Origin: Peptococcaceae bacterium BRH_c8a
GTDB lineage: Bacteria > Bacillota > Desulfotomaculia > Desulfotomaculales > Desulfallaceae
DNA: 64,000 nucleotides
Direction of reading: 5' to 3'
NCBI GenBank assembly: GCA_000961575.1
Contig: LADP01000013.1
Coordinates: 62,001-126,000, forward strand
Shown piece after piece: positions 20,144-27,793 of this stretch. The number at the start of each line of letters is the position of its first letter. Within the stretch, counting starts at the first letter, position 1. The notes below the pieces were generated by a model. It made no database searches. It saw only the letters and a program-made list of their open reading frames with translations, and was not told where the DNA came from. A program made the position numbers and the translations under genes.

Positions 20144-21064
20144 ATGTCCAATGAAAAACGATTTGTAGTCTTGTTATCTTTGGTTCTAATACTTTTGTTA
20201 ACCAATTGGTTAACTTGGTCAACGACCAGGGCAATGCAGTCAGATATCAAATGGCTGCAGGGAAACTTGAATAATTTGCACTCCAGCGTATCCGGTGAAG
20301 TTTCCGGTATCAGAGGCGTCGTTAAGCAAATGAAGGATGATGCGCGCTGGTGGGAACCTGCCGAGGCAGAGTTTTTAGACGTAAATAAAGATGAGGCTCA
20401 AGTAAAGATAAGTTGGTCGTTAAGGGAATACAGGGCTGGCAGCCAAGTAATGCTTAACTATCAAAAACCCGGTGAACAGGAATACATACAAATTGCCGCG
20501 AAGGAAGAAGCCAAGGGACGTTTTTATGTAAACTTACCAGTTGCTGTCCCCCGGGAACCAGTCATCAATGTAAATGTTAAACAAGTTGGAGACTTTACAA
20601 ATTCAAAAGCCCCAGTTGAAGTTGAGGAATCCCTTAAAGAGGCCCGTGTTTCCGGCACTGAAGATTTAAACTTTACGTATTATATCTCTGTGCAAGAAGG
20701 GCAGACCATTCGTACCAGCGAAAGACATTCGTTATCCCTGGGCAGTTTAAACTATCAGCTTTTTAGCCCCTTAATCGCAGAAGTAAGGTTAATGGATAAT
20801 GGTGAAATTGAAGCATCCGTGCACTATGAATTAGTGGGCAGTCCACATTATGAATTAAAGGAAATTTATTTGGAAAGCAGGACAGGTGAAGATACTGTCC
20901 TTGAAAAATGGCCTTTAGAGCGTGAACATACCTATGTCTACCCGGTTCCCGCCGGGGCAGAAGGTTTTTTATATTTAAAACCAACTTCTGCTAAAGATTA
21001 TGATTCCCTGTTCCTGGTTATTAATTATTCGGATAATCTAAAGGTGGAAAGGAAAATTTTATAA
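20144..21064 (+). CDS. Membrane-anchored protein of unknown function
   Basis: 306 aa from ATG 20144. A single N-terminal helix (VVLLSLVLILLLTNWLTW, residues about 8-25) is followed by a short helical/coiled segment (residues 30-65) and a beta-rich extracytoplasmic body. No family is recognised. The N-in, C-out anchor with a coiled stalk suggests a surface or envelope protein. It is followed after 26 bases by a DUF2164 gene. The open frame back to 20096 lacks a convincing start. Confidence 0.6.
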   Translation: MSNEKRFVVLLSLVLILLLTNWLTWSTTRAMQSDIKWLQGNLNNLHSSVSGEVSGIRGVVKQMKDDARWWEPAEAEFLDVNKDEAQVKISWSLREYRAGSQVMLNYQKPGEQEYIQIAAKEEAKGRFYVNLPVAVPREPVINVNVKQVGDFTNSKAPVEVEESLKEARVSGTEDLNFTYYISVQEGQTIRTSERHSLSLGSLNYQLFSPLIAEVRLMDNGEIEASVHYELVGSPHYELKEIYLESRTGEDTVLEKWPLEREHTYVYPVPAGAEGFLYLKPTSAKDYDSLFLVINYSDNLKVERKIL

Positions 21065-21068
21065 CAAG

Positions 21069-21080
21069 CAGACAAGGGGA
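21069..21080. repeat. Palindromic repeat, half arm
   Basis: CAGACAAGGGGA only. It supplies the AGGGGAG-like ribosome site of the following DUF2164 gene, so part of a repeat appears to serve translation. Confidence 0.6.
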
Positions 21081-21090
21081 GACCATCGGC

Positions 21091-21324
21091 ATGAATAACA
21101 ATAAAATCCAGATTAGCAAAGAGAAAAGAGATTATATGATCTCTGAAATTAAAACTTATTTTTCTAAAGAAAGAAATGAGGATTTAGGCGACTTGGCTTC
21201 TATGATTATACTGGATTTCTTTATAGAAAAATTGGCACCGGAATTCTACAACCAGGGAGTTTATGATTCACAAAAATATATGATGGATCGAGTTGAGGAT
21301 TTGCTGGAAATTCAAAAATATTAG
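21091..21324 (+). CDS. DUF2164-family small protein
   Basis: A 77-aa cytoplasmic protein. The central stretch LASMIILDFFIEKLAPEFYN followed by QGVYDSQ is the DUF2164 signature (dff.e.lgp.yYNqgv.d). The role of the family is not known; members are short helical proteins found in many Gram-positive and Gram-negative bacteria. ATG 21091 with AGGGGAG ten bases upstream. Confidence 0.75.
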   Translation: MNNNKIQISKEKRDYMISEIKTYFSKERNEDLGDLASMIILDFFIEKLAPEFYNQGVYDSQKYMMDRVEDLLEIQKY

Positions 21325-21328
21325 CCAT

Positions 21329-21407
21329 GACCAGACAAGGGGACAGGGACCTGTCTGGTGTTAACCAGACAGGTCCCTGTCCCCTTGTCTGGTCCCCCTT
21401 GTCTACC
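21329..21407. repeat. Palindromic repeat, 31-bp perfect hairpin
   Basis: Arms at 21329-21359 and 21364-21394 are perfect reverse complements around a GTTA loop; both carry the ACCTGTC variant of the core. An extra half copy follows to 21405. It lies between the DUF2164 gene and the sigma-54 activator. Confidence 0.9.
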
Positions 21408-21430
21408 CCTTAAGAACTGGAGATGTGATT

Positions 21431-23167
21431 ATGAGTACCGCAACAGAGTATGCCAAATTAATCAGTGAGTACCAGTTTATTTTAAGTGAGTTGCCGTGCG
21501 CAGTTGTTTTTATCTCCGGTGCAGGGATCATCAGCGACTTCAATAAAACAGCTCAAACCATCCTGGGAAAAAATAAAGAAAGTGCGGTGGGTAAACATTT
21601 CAGCCGCGTGTTTACCTGTGCCAAGCTTCAGGAGCAGATTAATAAGACCCTGCAGAGCAGCGAATCGCTCTTTATGTTGGAAAAGGTAAATAATGTTGAG
21701 GTTATTTTTAATTGCATCCCTGTAACGTCCGGTGGCGACAAGGGCATGCTGATTATTTTCGAAGACCAGACCGAGAAAAACGCTCTTTACAGCGAGTTGA
21801 ATATCATCAGGCAATTGAATCAGGAACTGACCCAGGTTCTGGAATCGTCCTACGACGGCATTATTATTGCTGATCATAAGGGTAAAATTATTAAAGCCAA
21901 TAAAAGTGTAGAGCGCATAACGGGGTTTAGGCCTGAAGAAATATTACAAAAATCGATGTTTCAATTGGAAAAAGAGGGGTATGTAAAAATCAACGAGATT
22001 CAGGCTAACAAACATACCCGCATCATAAAACAACGCCTAAAGACGGGCAAGGAAGTGCTGGTTTCCAGTAACCATATTTTTAACCAACAAGGTCAGCTCA
22101 GTTTTATCATCAGTAATATTAAGGATCTTACCGAAATAAAACAACAAATTGAACCCCTGAACTTAACTCAAAAATATTACAATGAGTTAAACGATTTTCG
22201 GGATAAGGTGAATCATATTATTTTTGACAGCAGTGAAATGAGCGGTGTGTTGGAAAAAGCCTATAAAGTAGCCAAGGTGGACTCGACGGTGCTGATCTCA
22301 GGCGAATCTGGCGTAGGTAAAGAAGTTATCTCCAAATTCATCTACAATAACAGCCAGCGCCGGAACGGCCCGATGATTAGTATAAACTGCGGTGCAATTC
22401 CGGAGAACCTGCTGGAATCCGAACTATTCGGCCATGAGAAAGGGGCTTTTACCGGGGCCACCGATAAAAAATTAGGGCTATTTGAACTAGCCAACAGCGG
22501 GACGATATTTCTGGACGAGATTGCTGAATTACAACTTAACTTACAGAGCAAGCTATTGCGTTTTTTGCAGGAAAAGGAAATTTACCGGGTCGGTGGTAAT
22601 AAACCGATCCAGTTGGATGTGCGGATTATTTCAGCCACCAATAAGGACATTGCAGCGCTGGTTAAAAACAAGCTTTTTAGGGATGATTTATTCTACAGAC
22701 TAAATGTAATCCCGATTCATATTCCGCCGCTGCGCAATCGGAGAAAAGATATTAGGCCACTGGTTAATAGCTTTTTAGAGAAAGAGTGCAAAAAGCATGG
22801 CCTGGTTAAAACTATTCCCTTGGAAGTTTATGACGCGTTAGAAAACTATGATTGGCCGGGTAATGTTAGGGAATTATTAAATGTAGTGGAATATCTGGTT
22901 GTGATGAGCCGCAGCAGCATAATTCATCTGGATGAGTTGCCTATACATATAGTCAATAGCAAGTTCAAAAATATAGAGGTTAATATAAATAAACTTATTC
23001 CTTTAAAAGAAGCCAAGGAAATTATGGAGCGGGAAGTAGTGGTTAACGCTTTAAGGAAGTATCGCTCCACAAAAAAAGTAGCGGCAGCGTTAAAAATGGA
23101 TAATTCTACAATCTTTCGGATCATGAAAAAATATAAATTGCATGACGATCCCAACGAAGACTTCTAA
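21431..23167 (+). CDS. Sigma-54-dependent PAS-domain transcriptional activator
   Basis: A 578-aa enhancer-binding protein. Two PAS domains (residues about 10-110 and 130-235; the second includes SYDGIIIADHKGKII) sense a signal. The AAA+ domain has Walker A GESGVGKE, the sigma-54 contact loop GAFTGA and Walker B GTIFLDEIAEL. A Fis-type helix-turn-helix (KKVAAALKMDNSTIFRIMKK) ends the protein. There is no receiver domain. It lies directly upstream of two TTGCA-N4-TGCAA dyads and a sigma-54 promoter, so it should drive the mutase-ligase operon when it detects the substrate. Confidence 0.92.
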   Translation: MSTATEYAKLISEYQFILSELPCAVVFISGAGIISDFNKTAQTILGKNKESAVGKHFSRVFTCAKLQEQINKTLQSSESLFMLEKVNNVEVIFNCIPVTSGGDKGMLIIFEDQTEKNALYSELNIIRQLNQELTQVLESSYDGIIIADHKGKIIKANKSVERITGFRPEEILQKSMFQLEKEGYVKINEIQANKHTRIIKQRLKTGKEVLVSSNHIFNQQGQLSFIISNIKDLTEIKQQIEPLNLTQKYYNELNDFRDKVNHIIFDSSEMSGVLEKAYKVAKVDSTVLISGESGVGKEVISKFIYNNSQRRNGPMISINCGAIPENLLESELFGHEKGAFTGATDKKLGLFELANSGTIFLDEIAELQLNLQSKLLRFLQEKEIYRVGGNKPIQLDVRIISATNKDIAALVKNKLFRDDLFYRLNVIPIHIPPLRNRRKDIRPLVNSFLEKECKKHGLVKTIPLEVYDALENYDWPGNVRELLNVVEYLVVMSRSSIIHLDELPIHIVNSKFKNIEVNINKLIPLKEAKEIMEREVVVNALRKYRSTKKVAAALKMDNSTIFRIMKKYKLHDDPNEDF

Positions 23168-23189
23168 CCCTTGTGTCTTTGCAAAAAGG

Positions 23190-23207
23190 CATTGCAGTTT
23201 TGCAATG
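23190..23207. promoter_or_regulatory. Enhancer-like dyad, site 1
   Basis: CATTGCA and TGCAATG separated by four bases (core TTGCA-N4-TGCAA). The centre is about 77 bp upstream of the second dyad with the same core. Likely a binding site of the adjacent sigma-54 activator. Confidence 0.6.
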
Positions 23208-23261
23208 TCAAGTATACTCGGTGAACAGCTGTTTTGCTGGCATTCTGGTAAGATTAATTAT

Positions 23262-23289
23262 GCACCATTTGCAAATATGCAAGTGGTGC
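23262..23289. promoter_or_regulatory. Enhancer-like dyad, site 2
   Basis: A 28-bp imperfect palindrome starting GCACCATTTGCA and ending TGCAAGTGGTGC, with the TTGCA-N4-TGCAA core at 23269-23282. It sits about 110 bp upstream of the sigma-54 promoter, a normal distance for an enhancer. Confidence 0.65.
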
Positions 23290-23380
23290 TTTCTTTTGGC
23301 TAGCCCATGCGAGGTGCTAAAGGGGCGCAGAACCGCCGCAGAGACTGCCTTGGCGGCCTATTTTTAGTCTGGCCCGGTAG

Positions 23381-23398
23381 TTGGCAGAGCTCTTGCAA
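23381..23398 (+). promoter_or_regulatory. Sigma-54 (-24/-12) promoter of the mutase operon
   Basis: TTGGCAGAGCTCTTGCAA has the GG and GC elements exactly 10 bases apart, close to the consensus TGGCAC-N5-TTGC. It lies 52 bases before the mutase ATG and downstream of two dyads. Confidence 0.75.
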
Positions 23399-23449
23399 TA
23401 GGATTAAGAATATTCAGAAAAATTATCTATGCGGAAAGGAGTTTAAACT

Positions 23450-25075
23450 ATGTCGCAATCGCAGCAAGAAGCACTGTTTAAGAACCAAGACCAAAGTAGA
23501 AGCTTTACCAGCAAATCGGGCATTGAGTTACAACCTTGCTATGCCCCTGACAGCCTGCCTGATTTTGATTACAGTCAGTTGGGTTACCCCGGCAGTCCGC
23601 CCTATACAAGGGGCATATATCCCCAAATGTATCGAAACCAACCCTGGACCTTTCGGCAGTTGGCGGGTTACGGCAGTGCCGAGGACACTAACGAAAGATA
23701 CCGGTTTTTAATCGCCAACGGGGCGACCGGGATTAATGGCGTGTTTGATTATCCGACGCTACGGGGGTACAACTCAGACAACCCTGTCGCTGAAGGAGAT
23801 TTAGGCCAGGGAGGTGTGGCCGTAGACTCAATCGAGGATATGCATTTGTTATTTAAAGATATTCCCATTGATGAAGTGAGCGTATCGCTGGTGGTGTGCA
23901 ATCCCGTCATGGCCGTGCCTGTTTTTGCTATGTATCTGGCTATGGCAGAAGAAAGAGGAATCCCGTGGAGCTCTTTACGGGGCACCAATCAAAATGACTT
24001 TCTAATGGAAACTGCCATTACCACAGCGCCGGTTATTTTGCAGCCTCATTTTTCGTTCAAATTAAGTACCGATATTGTGGAATTTTGCACCGGCCAGGTC
24101 CCTCGCTGGCATCCCATTAGTTACACCGGCTATAACTACCGGGAATCTGGCGTTAATGCGATCCAGGAAGTGGGGATAGTGATGGCCAATGCCATCGCTA
24201 CTATTGAAGAGATGCTGAAGCGCGGTTACCAAATAGATGATTTTGCTCCCAGACTGTCTGTGTTTTTCTCGTCAGATAGTGATTTCTTTGAAGAGGTGGC
24301 CAAATATCGGGCCGCCCGGCGGGTGTGGTTCAATTTAATGAGCGCCAGCTATGGCGCCACTAAAAAGAACAGCCAGACATTAAGGTTTCATGTGCAGACG
24401 TCCGGAGCATCATTGACCCCACAGCAACCGCTCAACAATGTTACGCGTTCGGCATTCCAGGCCTTAGCGGCGGTACTCGGCGGCGCTCAGTCGATCCATG
24501 TTAACGGTTACGATGAAGCACTGGCCATCCCTACCGAAGAAGCTGCCATCGTAGCGCTAAGAACCCAGCAGATTATTTTGCATGAAACAAATGCCGCCTA
24601 CACTGCCGACCCGCTCGGCGGCTCATATTTTGTTGAAACACTGACCAATAAACTGGAAAAACAAATTAATGCCTTTGTCAGTGAAGTTACAGCGGTTGGC
24701 GGTATGGTGGCAGCCGTGGAAACAGGTATGATTCACGACGTGATCAGCCAGGCCGCCAACGAACATTTTAGGCAAGTCCGGTCCGGAGAACAAAAAGTGG
24801 TAGGCTTGAATTGCTTTAAACACGATGATGAACCGGAAATTGAAATATTTCGGGCGCCGGATATTCTAGAAAAACAGAAACAGAAATTAAGCGCTCTACG
24901 CCAAAGCAGGGACGCCGGGGCGGTGGAAGTCAGCCTGGCCAAGGTTAAAACTGCCTGTCTGGAAGAGCGCAATGTGATGTCTGCGGTGCTGGAAGCGGTA
25001 AAAAACAGGGCCACCCTGGAAGAAGTTTGCAATGTGTTCAGAGATTATAAGGGTGGCTGGAGACTGCCTATTTAA
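23450..25075 (+). CDS. Divergent B12-dependent acyl-CoA mutase, large subunit
   Basis: A 541-aa protein of the methylmalonyl-CoA mutase catalytic family (TIM barrel), without the B12 domain, which is a separate gene as in isobutyryl- and 2-hydroxyisobutyryl-CoA mutases. Family segments are TRGIYPQMYRNQPWTFRQ, GYNSDNPVAEGD, QNDFL and DDFAPRLSVFF. The active site differs: SGYH of known mutases reads TGYN (residue 229), replacing the conserved catalytic His, and the Arg that holds the methylmalonyl carboxylate appears to be Thr191. So it should not act on methylmalonyl-CoA; the substrate is unknown. ATG has GGAAAGGAG-type site upstream. Confidence 0.88.
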   Translation: MSQSQQEALFKNQDQSRSFTSKSGIELQPCYAPDSLPDFDYSQLGYPGSPPYTRGIYPQMYRNQPWTFRQLAGYGSAEDTNERYRFLIANGATGINGVFDYPTLRGYNSDNPVAEGDLGQGGVAVDSIEDMHLLFKDIPIDEVSVSLVVCNPVMAVPVFAMYLAMAEERGIPWSSLRGTNQNDFLMETAITTAPVILQPHFSFKLSTDIVEFCTGQVPRWHPISYTGYNYRESGVNAIQEVGIVMANAIATIEEMLKRGYQIDDFAPRLSVFFSSDSDFFEEVAKYRAARRVWFNLMSASYGATKKNSQTLRFHVQTSGASLTPQQPLNNVTRSAFQALAAVLGGAQSIHVNGYDEALAIPTEEAAIVALRTQQIILHETNAAYTADPLGGSYFVETLTNKLEKQINAFVSEVTAVGGMVAAVETGMIHDVISQAANEHFRQVRSGEQKVVGLNCFKHDDEPEIEIFRAPDILEKQKQKLSALRQSRDAGAVEVSLAKVKTACLEERNVMSAVLEAVKNRATLEEVCNVFRDYKGGWRLPI

Positions 25076-25092
25076 TAGAAAGGGGTGTTAAA

Positions 25093-25488
25093 ATGCGCAA
25101 GGTCTTGCTTGGCAAGTTGGGATTGGACGCTCACTGGCGAGGTGCTGCCGTGGTGGCGAAATACTTAATGGACAAAGGTTATGAGGTTGTTTATGTGGGC
25201 AACCAGACTCCTGAGCAGATGGTTGAGTCTGCCATTCAGGAAGACCCCAGCTTAATTGGCGTTAGCATGCTATCCGGCAGCCATATTTTATTAATGTCGA
25301 AATTTATGCAACTGCTGCAGGATAAGGAAATGAAGGACATTCCTGTAGTCTTGGGCGGGACGATACCAAAGCAGGACAAAGCGAAACTGCAAGAGCTGGG
25401 TGTGGCTTGTGTTTATACACCGGGCGATTCACTGGATACCCTGGGGGATTTTATTTCGGGGATCAACGTGAATACCGTTAATAGCTGA
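25093..25488 (+). CDS. Cobalamin-binding subunit of the acyl-CoA mutase
   Basis: 131 aa, the B12-binding partner of the large subunit. The cobalt-ligand motif DAHWRG (residues 12-17; consensus DxHxxG) is intact, followed by the SxL motif in VSMLSG and the GG motif in VVLGGTIP. Together with the large subunit it forms an adenosylcobalamin-dependent carbon-skeleton rearranging enzyme. It follows the large subunit by 17 bases with AAAGGGG as ribosome site. Confidence 0.92.
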   Translation: MRKVLLGKLGLDAHWRGAAVVAKYLMDKGYEVVYVGNQTPEQMVESAIQEDPSLIGVSMLSGSHILLMSKFMQLLQDKEMKDIPVVLGGTIPKQDKAKLQELGVACVYTPGDSLDTLGDFISGINVNTVNS

Positions 25489-25540
25489 CCTGCCAGTTGA
25501 GGTAAGTGATTAAAGTAAAAGAATGAACGGAGGCGTGAAT

Positions 25541-26887
25541 ATGTATAAACGCTACTGGGACGAGGAAAGAGAAACAATGCCCCGGGAAAAGCGAGAGAAA
25601 CTGATTCTGGAAAAGATCAAAAAACAGCTGCACTATGTCTATCAGGAGATTCCGTTTTACAGAGATTTGTATGACCGGGCCGGCGTTAAACCCGATGATG
25701 TGGTAACCCTGGAAGATTTTACAGCCAAGATTCCGGTCGTTAAAAAGAGCATGTTACGGGAAAGCCAAGAGCAACATCATCCCTTTGGCAACTACCTGGG
25801 TGCCAATCTTTCCCCCATTGTACGTATTCACGGCTCTTCCGGGACTACCGGCAAGCCAACATTTTATGCCATCTCGCAAAAAGACTGGGAGCATGTGGCC
25901 GAAGTACACGCCATGTGTTTTTGGGCTGCGGGCATTCGACCATCTGACCGGGTACATCTGGCCACTCATTTTAGTCTCTTCATCGGCAGTTGGGGCTCTT
26001 TAATCGGGGTGGAGAAACTTGGCGCCACCGCTTTTCCCATCGGCTCGGGTGAAACTGACCGGCAGTTAAACCTGTTGTGGCATTTGGGAAATACTGTTTT
26101 GATTTCGACGCCGTCTTACTGTCTGCATATGCTGGAAACGGCCAGGCATCAGGGACGGGACACTGCTAATTCCCCGTTGCGGATGGGCATTTTTATCGGC
26201 GAACCCGGTGCCGGCATTCCGGCCACCAAAAGAGCAATTGGCGAAGGCTGGGGGATTAGCGTTGCTGACTGTGCCACCACGTCTGAAATGACACCGTGGA
26301 CTACCAACTGTGAGTGTGAGGAACGTACGGGGATGCACGTCTTTAATGACGCGGTATACACCGAAGTGGTCAGCAAGGATAACCCCAATGAGCCTGTCCC
26401 CGAAATGACCAGCGGCGGGCTGGTGTACACCCACCTGGAACGAGAGTCGCAGCCGATGATCCGTTTTTGGTCCGGGGATGAATCCCGGATGACGAACGAG
26501 CCCTGTGCCTGCGGCCGCACCTATCCCCGCCTGCCTGACGGCGTCTACGGCAGGCTTGACGATATGCTGATTATCCGTGGCGCTAATGTATATCCCAGTG
26601 CGGTGCAAAAAGAACTGCTCGAAGTGCCCGGCACCGGTGTGGAATTCCGTATTGTATTGGAAAAGAAGGGGCATCTGGATCATGCCACTGTGCAGGTGGA
26701 GTATAACCCCGTTTATTACAACAACATTCCGGCCCATGAACTGCCGCAGCAGTTAGATGCCTTGCAAAAAGCGGCGGCCGTAAAGCTGAAAAACGCTACG
26801 GGGGTACGCTTCGATGTAGAAGTTCTCCAACCCGAGACACTGGAAAGAGCAATCTCCAAAGCCAAACGAGTTTTCGACCACCGCTAA
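25541..26887 (+). CDS. Phenylacetate-CoA-ligase-like AMP-forming acyl-CoA ligase
   Basis: 448 aa of the PaaK branch of the ANL superfamily. The AMP/ATP loop is GSSGTTGKPTFYA, and the C-terminal hinge contains GRLDDMLIIRGANVYPSAV. It activates a carboxylic acid to its CoA ester with ATP. ATG 25541 has GGAGG nine bases before it; an earlier ATG at 25523 has none. As last gene of the sigma-54-driven operon it probably activates the acid whose CoA thioester the mutase rearranges. The stop is directly abutted by a 90-bp palindrome. Confidence 0.85.
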   Translation: MYKRYWDEERETMPREKREKLILEKIKKQLHYVYQEIPFYRDLYDRAGVKPDDVVTLEDFTAKIPVVKKSMLRESQEQHHPFGNYLGANLSPIVRIHGSSGTTGKPTFYAISQKDWEHVAEVHAMCFWAAGIRPSDRVHLATHFSLFIGSWGSLIGVEKLGATAFPIGSGETDRQLNLLWHLGNTVLISTPSYCLHMLETARHQGRDTANSPLRMGIFIGEPGAGIPATKRAIGEGWGISVADCATTSEMTPWTTNCECEERTGMHVFNDAVYTEVVSKDNPNEPVPEMTSGGLVYTHLERESQPMIRFWSGDESRMTNEPCACGRTYPRLPDGVYGRLDDMLIIRGANVYPSAVQKELLEVPGTGVEFRIVLEKKGHLDHATVQVEYNPVYYNNIPAHELPQQLDALQKAAAVKLKNATGVRFDVEVLQPETLERAISKAKRVFDHR

Positions 26888-26977
26888 CAGACAAGGGGAC
26901 AGCAGACAAGGGGACAGGGACCTGTCTGTTTATAAACAGACAGGTCCCTGTCCCCTTGTCTGCTGTCCCCTTGTCTG
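26888..26977. repeat. Perfect 90-bp palindrome of the repeat family
   Basis: The 45-base halves are exact reverse complements with no loop, centred at 26932/26933. Each half has one full and one partial AAGGGGACAG unit. It lies between the stop codons of two convergent genes (ligase and SIR2) and starts at the base after the ligase stop. It would make a very strong bidirectional hairpin. Confidence 0.95.
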
Positions 26978-26983
26978 AGCTGG

Positions 26984-27793
26984 CTACCCGAGCACGCGAT
27001 CCCGCAGGTCGGTCATAAACCTGGTAAAATCAGCGGAAAAATCATCGGAATCCAGGCAAATTATTTTCATACCCTTTTTCCCGTAAACTGTTTCAAAAAC
27101 ATAGTTGGGCCTCATGGTAACCATATATGCTTTGCAATTGGCCTGCATTATTTTAAACAATTTGCTCCACATGTACCGGATATTCAAATCCCGGAAGCTA
27201 TATCCCAAAAATAAAACTGTTTTACCCAACAAATCGGCCCGCAGTTTAATATCCAGGGGTTCTTCCATGTCCATCCGGTTGTGATAGTCGGTTTCACTGA
27301 TAACCAAGGTTTCATCCAGATCCAAAGTGCCGTGAAACTTGACAATCTGGGTCACGTTATCCGGGGCGTTCATGATGTCATCCAGGGTGGCGATGGGATA
27401 GTGGGGCACGTTATGGCACCGAAAAGCCATTTCAATCATTTCATCAAAATTGGTAGTGTATATTTTGGGGAAATTCATGTCAATCAGGCACTTGTGCACC
27501 CGGGAGGCCGCAATATCCACTTCAATGGAGCGCAAATTGCGGTCAATAATTTTGCTGATGCGGTTTTTACTACCGCCGTGACAGATAATATGGTACTCGT
27601 TAATTTGCAGAAAATCCCCGTGCAGGGCCAGGATGTCCGGGTCGATATCCAGGTCCTCGGCCACTTTGGCCATTAATGACTCCCATTCCGGCAGGCCCAG
27701 GTTACGGGAAAGACCGGCACCAACAAAGGGGATGATTTTCTTTTCCCGAATGTCGTGAGCTAATTCATCAATTAACTTATCGTAACTCACCAT
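26984..27793 (-). CDS. SIR2-like NAD-binding protein (candidate defence NADase)
   Basis: A 269-aa SIR2_2-type Rossmann protein. The NAD-binding motifs are intact: VGAGLS (residues 24-29), TTNFD (113-117), FHG with the expected catalytic His (154), and GYSFRD (197-202). Stand-alone SIR2 proteins of this type are usually NAD-degrading effectors of anti-phage systems rather than deacetylases, and no zinc-finger cysteines of classical sirtuins are seen. Its ATG overlaps the end of the HAM1-like gene by 7 bases, so the two are coupled. The pairing recalls the effector complex of the Kongming defence system. Confidence 0.85.
   Translation of the reverse strand: MVSYDKLIDELAHDIREKKIIPFVGAGLSRNLGLPEWESLMAKVAEDLDIDPDILALHGDFLQINEYHIICHGGSKNRISKIIDRNLRSIEVDIAASRVHKCLIDMNFPKIYTTNFDEMIEMAFRCHNVPHYPIATLDDIMNAPDNVTQIVKFHGTLDLDETLVISETDYHNRMDMEEPLDIKLRADLLGKTVLFLGYSFRDLNIRYMWSKLFKIMQANCKAYMVTMRPNYVFETVYGKKGMKIICLDSDDFSADFTRFMTDLRDRVLG

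Follow-up and report, generated by a model that had tools for sequence, protein, structure and literature searches.

What controls the three-gene acyl-CoA-mutase operon that begins 282 bases downstream of the gene of a sigma-54 activator in the 64-kb stretch of DNA analysed here (the window)? These bases contain two matched dyads and a −24/−12 element (Table 1). They appear to constitute a sigma-54-dependent promoter region driven by the adjacent upstream activator, i.e. a signal-gated, RpoN-dependent switch, a reading to which we assign a probability of roughly 0.78.

Table 1. Features of the activator–mutase region (window coordinates; L052 is the related locus of a second genome)
Feature	Position	Strand	Remarks
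Activator gene: sigma-54 enhancer-binding protein, PAS (PAS_4)-PAS-AAA+ (GAFTGA)-HTH_50	21431..23167	+	Pfam/NCBIfam matches; L052 ortholog 90% identical
Extra palindromic half-site TTGCAA	23179..23184	.	Centre 17 bp upstream of dyad 1 centre; L052 likewise, same offset
Dyad 1, TTGCAGTTTTGCAA, exact TTGCA-N4-TGCAA, predicted upstream activator site	23192..23205	.	Centre 23198.5; both arms invariant in L052, spacer alone changed
Intrinsic-terminator-like hairpin around dyad 2	23262..23297	+	Stem 23262–23289, tail TTTCTTTT; probably ends activator transcript
Dyad 2, TTGCAAATATGCAA, exact TTGCA-N4-TGCAA, predicted second activator site	23269..23282	.	Centre 23275.5; identical in L052, 77 bp from dyad 1
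GC-rich bulged hairpin, CCGCCGCAG-AGA-CTGC..GGCGG, then TATTTTT	23333..23364	+	In stretch mostly absent from L052
Sigma-54 −24/−12 promoter, TTGGCAGAGCTCTTGCA	23381..23397	+	GG 23383–23384, GC 23395–23396; score 22.0 of 23.5; core kept in L052 as TTGGCGCAACTCTTGCA; predicted start near 23408
B12-dependent acyl-CoA mutase large subunit, Asn (GYN) clade	23450..25075	+	PF01642/TIGR00641, active-site comparison, clade tree
B12-binding small subunit of mutase	25093..25488	+	PF02310/TIGR00640
PaaK-like acyl-CoA ligase, last operon gene	25523..26887	+	PF14535; TIGR02155 well below cut-off; next gene on opposite strand

The sequence-only reading of this DNA had described two TTGCA-N4-TGCAA dyads with centres 77 bp apart, an activator gene that ends just upstream of them and a promoter about 110 bp after them. 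This layout is accurate: both dyads are exact, the stop codon of the activator gene (23165–23167) stands 24 bp before dyad 1, and the centre of dyad 2 is 107.5 bp from the GG of the promoter (98 bp edge to edge). There are no exact matches to this palindrome in the window other than these two, both in the activator–mutase gap. Dinucleotide shuffles of the window carry 0.27 exact dyads on average, and two, counted anywhere in the window, were reached in 3 of 100 shuffles. The region thus has what is expected of an enhancer, namely at least two matched dyads roughly 80–250 bp upstream of a promoter. An Rfam search of positions 21000–27200 returned no match.

The promoter element has its GG and GC 10 bp apart in a TTGGCA-N6-TTGC context, so that the −24/−12 spacing is indeed correct, as had been claimed. 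It is the only exact match to TGGCA-N6-TTGCA in the window, and the 4.17 Mb genome contains nine such sites versus five for the reversed control. The word is therefore not rare genome-wide, and its significance lies in its place between the activator stop and the operon start. The + strand from 23168 to 23449 showed no sigma-70-like pair of hexamers. RpoN is encoded both in the window genome and in the second genome (G340).

In the activator, a pair of PAS domains precedes a complete Sigma54_activat AAA+ domain, which carries the ESELFGHEKGAFTGA loop; an AAA lid and a DNA-binding HTH_50 domain follow. Its translation contains the Walker motifs, GAFTGA and a C-terminal HTH, which are the hallmarks of a bacterial enhancer-binding protein (bEBP). 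The Pfam architecture also agrees with the earlier proposal of PAS domains rather than a receiver: the receiver is absent and the sensory domains are of the PAS type, as in a one-component bEBP. The L052 ortholog begins at the codon that corresponds to ATG 21431, 6 bp after the GTG (21425) at which the ORF caller had opened the frame. The nearest NCBIfam equivalog is PrdR, with a score of 418.9 bits versus a cut-off of 795. About 22 proteins of the window genome match the AAA+ region of the activator, and several other activators of this genome also adjoin a strong −24/−12 site; at least one such match (L190) is itself located inside a REP-like palindrome. A search for near orthologs of the activator in the class of the window genome found none, the best hit being 45% identical. 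Just 5′ of the activator gene (21336–21400) there is a long palindrome, GGGGACAGGGACCTGTCTGG...CCAGACAGGTCCCTGTCCCC, apparently another dispersed repeat.

Among the genomes scanned for orthologs, one per species, a single close relative of the mutase turned up, in locus L052 on contig C32 of G340. Its mutase is 87% identical to that of the window, and an activator with 90% identity lies directly upstream; none of the other orthologs found has this activator next to its mutase. In the footprint formed by this one pair of sequences, the dyad arms (20/20) and the promoter core (9/9) are identical, versus 136 of 219 positions in the rest of the intergenic alignment (Fisher 3e-6; 2e-4 for a gappier alignment). 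The 77-bp spacing of the dyads is equal in both genomes, with 28 of the 63 bp between them (44%) identical. The spacer of dyad 1 and the inner bases of the promoter are changed in L052, and the gap between dyad 2 and the promoter is 33 bp shorter than in the window, a difference tolerable for enhancers. Arms, core and spacing that are kept amid divergent DNA form the pattern of protein-binding sites, and phylogenetic footprinting, one of the checks suggested earlier, thus supports the switch in this one pair. The GC-rich hairpin was considered as a conserved part of the region and rejected, as it is not kept in L052 and its fold has a z of only −1.4; it is not essential to the circuit.

A second suggested check, a dyad scan of orthologous operons, gave a divided answer. 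L052, which has the activator, has the dyads, but no dyads were found 5′ of the more distant mutase orthologs, where the activator is absent; these mostly have no sigma-54 promoter, and none that is consistent. Dyads and sigma-54 sites were therefore rejected as a general feature of the mutase family, and the circuit belongs to this cassette. The dyads could also belong to a different regulator, either a repressor or an activator that acts as a homodimer, with the operon not run by the adjacent activator at all. TTGCA-N4-TGCAA is a generic dimer site, and it is unlike the TGT/ACA type of 15 clostridial EBP groups tabulated in PMC6615313. However, dyads and promoter are inherited along with the activator, there is no further regulator gene adjacent, and sites some 130 and 210 bp ahead of the start are not where a classical repressor would be expected to bind. 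We consider another regulator highly improbable and retain the adjacent activator as the protein that would bind the dyads.

The exact dyad occurs eight times in the window genome: twice here, five times in GGGGTCAGGCC-type REP-like palindromes and once as a lone site. In G340, there are 34 exact dyads versus none for the control, most of them in GGGGACGGTTC palindromes and often about 34 bp apart. The idea that the dyad is a genome-wide activator word in G340 was rejected since most copies are in GGGGACGGTTC repeats and no activator homolog was found in the regions examined around these dyads. The REP-like palindromes are dispersed (L161–L165, L168–L176, L178, L180, L181 and L183 in G340, GGGGACGGTTC; L132–L134 in the window genome, G000, GGGGTCAGGCC), and their TTGCA-N4-TGCAA cores often stand in 33–35 bp tandem. 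A RAYT-like protein (REP-associated tyrosine transposase, assigned by eye) is encoded at 332–1120 of L052, some 1.8 kb ahead of the activator gene of the cassette.

With dyads so abundant in REP-like repeats, the motif alone is no marker of enhancers, and any search for this enhancer by its motif would be led astray by these palindromes. The presence of five of the eight exact dyads of the window genome, and of most of the 34 in G340, inside GGGGTCAGGCC or GGGGACGGTTC palindromes could mean that the window dyads are relics of such palindromes, which have the same core in both genomes, and play no regulatory role. But repeat arms flank neither window dyad, and both dyads are better conserved than the DNA around them and keep a constant spacing, so we give this origin hardly any credence. 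The window pair, which we continue to regard as a predicted enhancer, is set apart by its context, the absence of repeat arms and its conservation. That the dyad is otherwise confined, in the window genome, to REP-like copies and one lone site would fit a regulon of one operon.

A larger palindrome of 28 nt, GCACCATTTGCAAATATGCAAGTGGTGC, has dyad 2 at its core and is followed by the T-rich TTTCTTTT, a terminator-like setting overlooked in the sequence-only reading. The hairpin has a 12-bp stem in the window (−19.5 kcal/mol, z −4.9), and its L052 counterpart is weaker (−13.6 kcal/mol, z −3.8) and has a longer T run. Dyad 2 thus presents a stable stem-loop with a T run 3′ of a gene, as intrinsic terminators do. 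Ending the activator transcript is probably an added function of dyad 2, or its sole one. No T tail follows dyad 1 on the + strand. If dyad 2 were the activator's terminator only, dyad 1 and the TTGCAA half-site would be the sole enhancer, and the matching cores would be coincidental. Besides the stem and tail in the window and the longer T run in L052, the conserved 3′ arm and tail, GGTGCTTTCTTTT, fit such a role. It does not explain why the ten arm bases match dyad 1 and are the same in both genomes when the outer arms of the stem have changed and pair less well in L052, nor why dyad 2 stands exactly 77 bp from dyad 1 in either genome. We find the terminator-only role unlikely. The fixed inner ten bases within a changed outer stem lead us to read dyad 2 as dual use, a predicted enhancer and terminator. 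The earlier account of the control circuit is supported by the type of the activator, the presence of RpoN and the dyads and promoter conserved in L052, but has to be qualified in that dyad 2 is terminator-like and the circuit is local to the cassette.

The enzyme under this predicted control belongs to a separate group of B12-dependent mutases. In alignments with 5REQ and 4R3U (chain numbering offset by one), the window mutase has Leu at Tyr89 and Asn at the active-site His244 of methylmalonyl-CoA mutase (MCM; P. shermanii numbering), with residue names as in established MCM work. MCM Arg207 aligns with a Thr in the 5REQ alignment, in a gapped and less certain column. With Tyr89 and His244, the pair by which an MCM is recognised, both replaced, the window protein is not a methylmalonyl-CoA mutase. 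In the mutase tree, all 45 Asn sequences form one clade (support 1.0) that excludes the 70 His sequences. The Asn at His244 goes along with Leu or Ile at position 89, and Ser114 is mostly replaced by Asn. The clade as taken here (window 23450–25075; L048, L049, L052–L082, L107, L121, L138–L143, L146 and L147) has hosts among Deltaproteobacteria, Bacillota, Actinomycetota and Archaeoglobales. We know of no characterised Asn-clade mutase, and a search for a solved structure of one found none.

The PaaK-like ligase is also present at three Bacillus loci and at L053–L055. In Bacillus methanolicus (L081, 216–9502), an Asn-clade mutase is accompanied by a TRAP transporter, a GntR regulator, a MeaB-like protein, a PaaK-like ligase and an SDR (assigned by eye), which looks like a complete pathway that takes up, activates and isomerises a small acid of the hydroxy or branched type. 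Sigma-54 activators of differing types are found near Asn-clade mutases in L079, L149 and L184. In L149 (4458–8389), from another genome of the same order, an Asn-clade mutase operon is next to a divergent sigma-54 activator and a plausible −24/−12 site, GAGGCATGAGAATTGCA, a combination found only there among the more distant mutase orthologs. It is a second, independent pairing of an Asn-clade mutase with sigma-54 control.

The conserved cassette comprises the activator, the control region, the mutase and the B12 subunit (window 21431–25488; L052 2967–7040); the PaaK-like ligase of the window locus is absent from L052. The window genome and G340 belong to the same phylum and to different classes. 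Their RpoN proteins are 46.7% identical, versus 87–90% for the cassette, and no mutase more than 46% identical to that of the window was found in the examined genomes of its genus and family. These figures argue that the cassette moved between classes, most likely by recent lateral transfer; G340 is a metagenome bin, and contig misassignment would undercut this reading.

A scheme of signal, binding, activation and termination can be drawn from the sequence elements, the protein domains, RpoN and the conservation in the second genome. The PAS domains of the activator would sense a signal. They do not reveal their ligand, which may be a small molecule or a redox signal, as suggested earlier, and since the operon encodes a CoA ligase, the cognate acid or its CoA ester is the first and most likely candidate. 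The HTH would bind the tandem dyads, which lie some 210 and 130 bp ahead of the predicted start, and the AAA+ GAFTGA module would contact RNA polymerase–sigma-54 held at the −24/−12 element and open the promoter for the mutase, the B12 subunit and the ligase. The hairpin around dyad 2 would terminate transcription of the activator gene, so that this palindrome probably has a double role.

A broader proposal, to which we give slightly less than even odds, is that the switch controls an uncharacterised B12 mutase of a separate clade, in which Asn stands for His244 and Leu/Ile for Tyr89 and a carboxylate-binding Arg is not evident, and that this mutase isomerises a monocarboxylic acyl-CoA, branched or unusual in some other way, supplied by the PaaK-like ligase. 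The cassette of activator, enhancers, promoter, mutase and B12 subunit would be self-regulated and move between bacterial classes, and its enhancer would double as the activator's terminator. A defined on-switch would thereby be linked to an enzyme without an assigned substrate. Should the acid of the pathway be what the activator responds to, induction by candidate acids would reveal the substrate of the Asn clade of mutases. The locus would also offer a clean case of a palindrome with a possible double function, as enhancer and as terminator, and of a catabolic operon moving with its own regulation.

The closest solved mutase to that of the window is 2-hydroxyisobutyryl-CoA mutase (HCM, 4R3U), and both enzymes have separate large and small subunits. 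The HCM operon, too, includes a CoA ligase. At the MCM Tyr89 position and at its own Asp117, HCM carries Ile and Asp, whereas the window mutase carries Leu and Val, and Asn for His244. A second sigma-54-linked mutase operon is found on contig C43 of the window genome (L210, G000:C43:19000-34000), where an apparent propionate/methylmalonyl (mmc) operon follows a sigma-54 activator and a strong −24/−12 site, TTGGCATGATACTTGCG; this arrangement resembles MmcZ–mmc of Pelotomaculum thermopropionicum. Similar to the window, the activator is on the same strand directly upstream, the −24/−12 site is strong and the operon contains an acyl-CoA mutase. Unlike in the window, the mutase is of the GYH type, succinyl-CoA synthetase-like genes are part of the operon, there are no exact TTGCA-N4-TGCAA dyads, and the activator is 35% identical to that of the window.

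An adjacent PAS-EBP with multiple sites and a single target operon is the norm in Clostridiales according to Nie et al. 2019 (PMC6615313). In that survey, 65% of 263 activators of this kind control one operon, 32 of 39 EBP groups have multiple sites, and most sites are 100–250 bp from the promoter. The window region shares with these operons the adjacent PAS-EBP, the multiple sites about 100–250 bp upstream, the TTGGCA-N6-TTGC promoter and the one target operon. It differs from them in that none of the 39 tabulated groups controls a B12-dependent acyl-CoA mutase operon. Its dyad is also unlike the TGT-N10-12-ACA sites of 15 of the 39 groups, the 15 with which it was compared (PMC6615313). These include PrdR, the proline reductase activator, which is the nearest family model but from which the window activator is separated both by its sub-cut-off score and by the type of site. 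The switch architecture of adjacent PAS-EBP, multiple enhancers and one target operon is standard in Clostridia, and the less ordinary part is the clade of the mutase that it targets.
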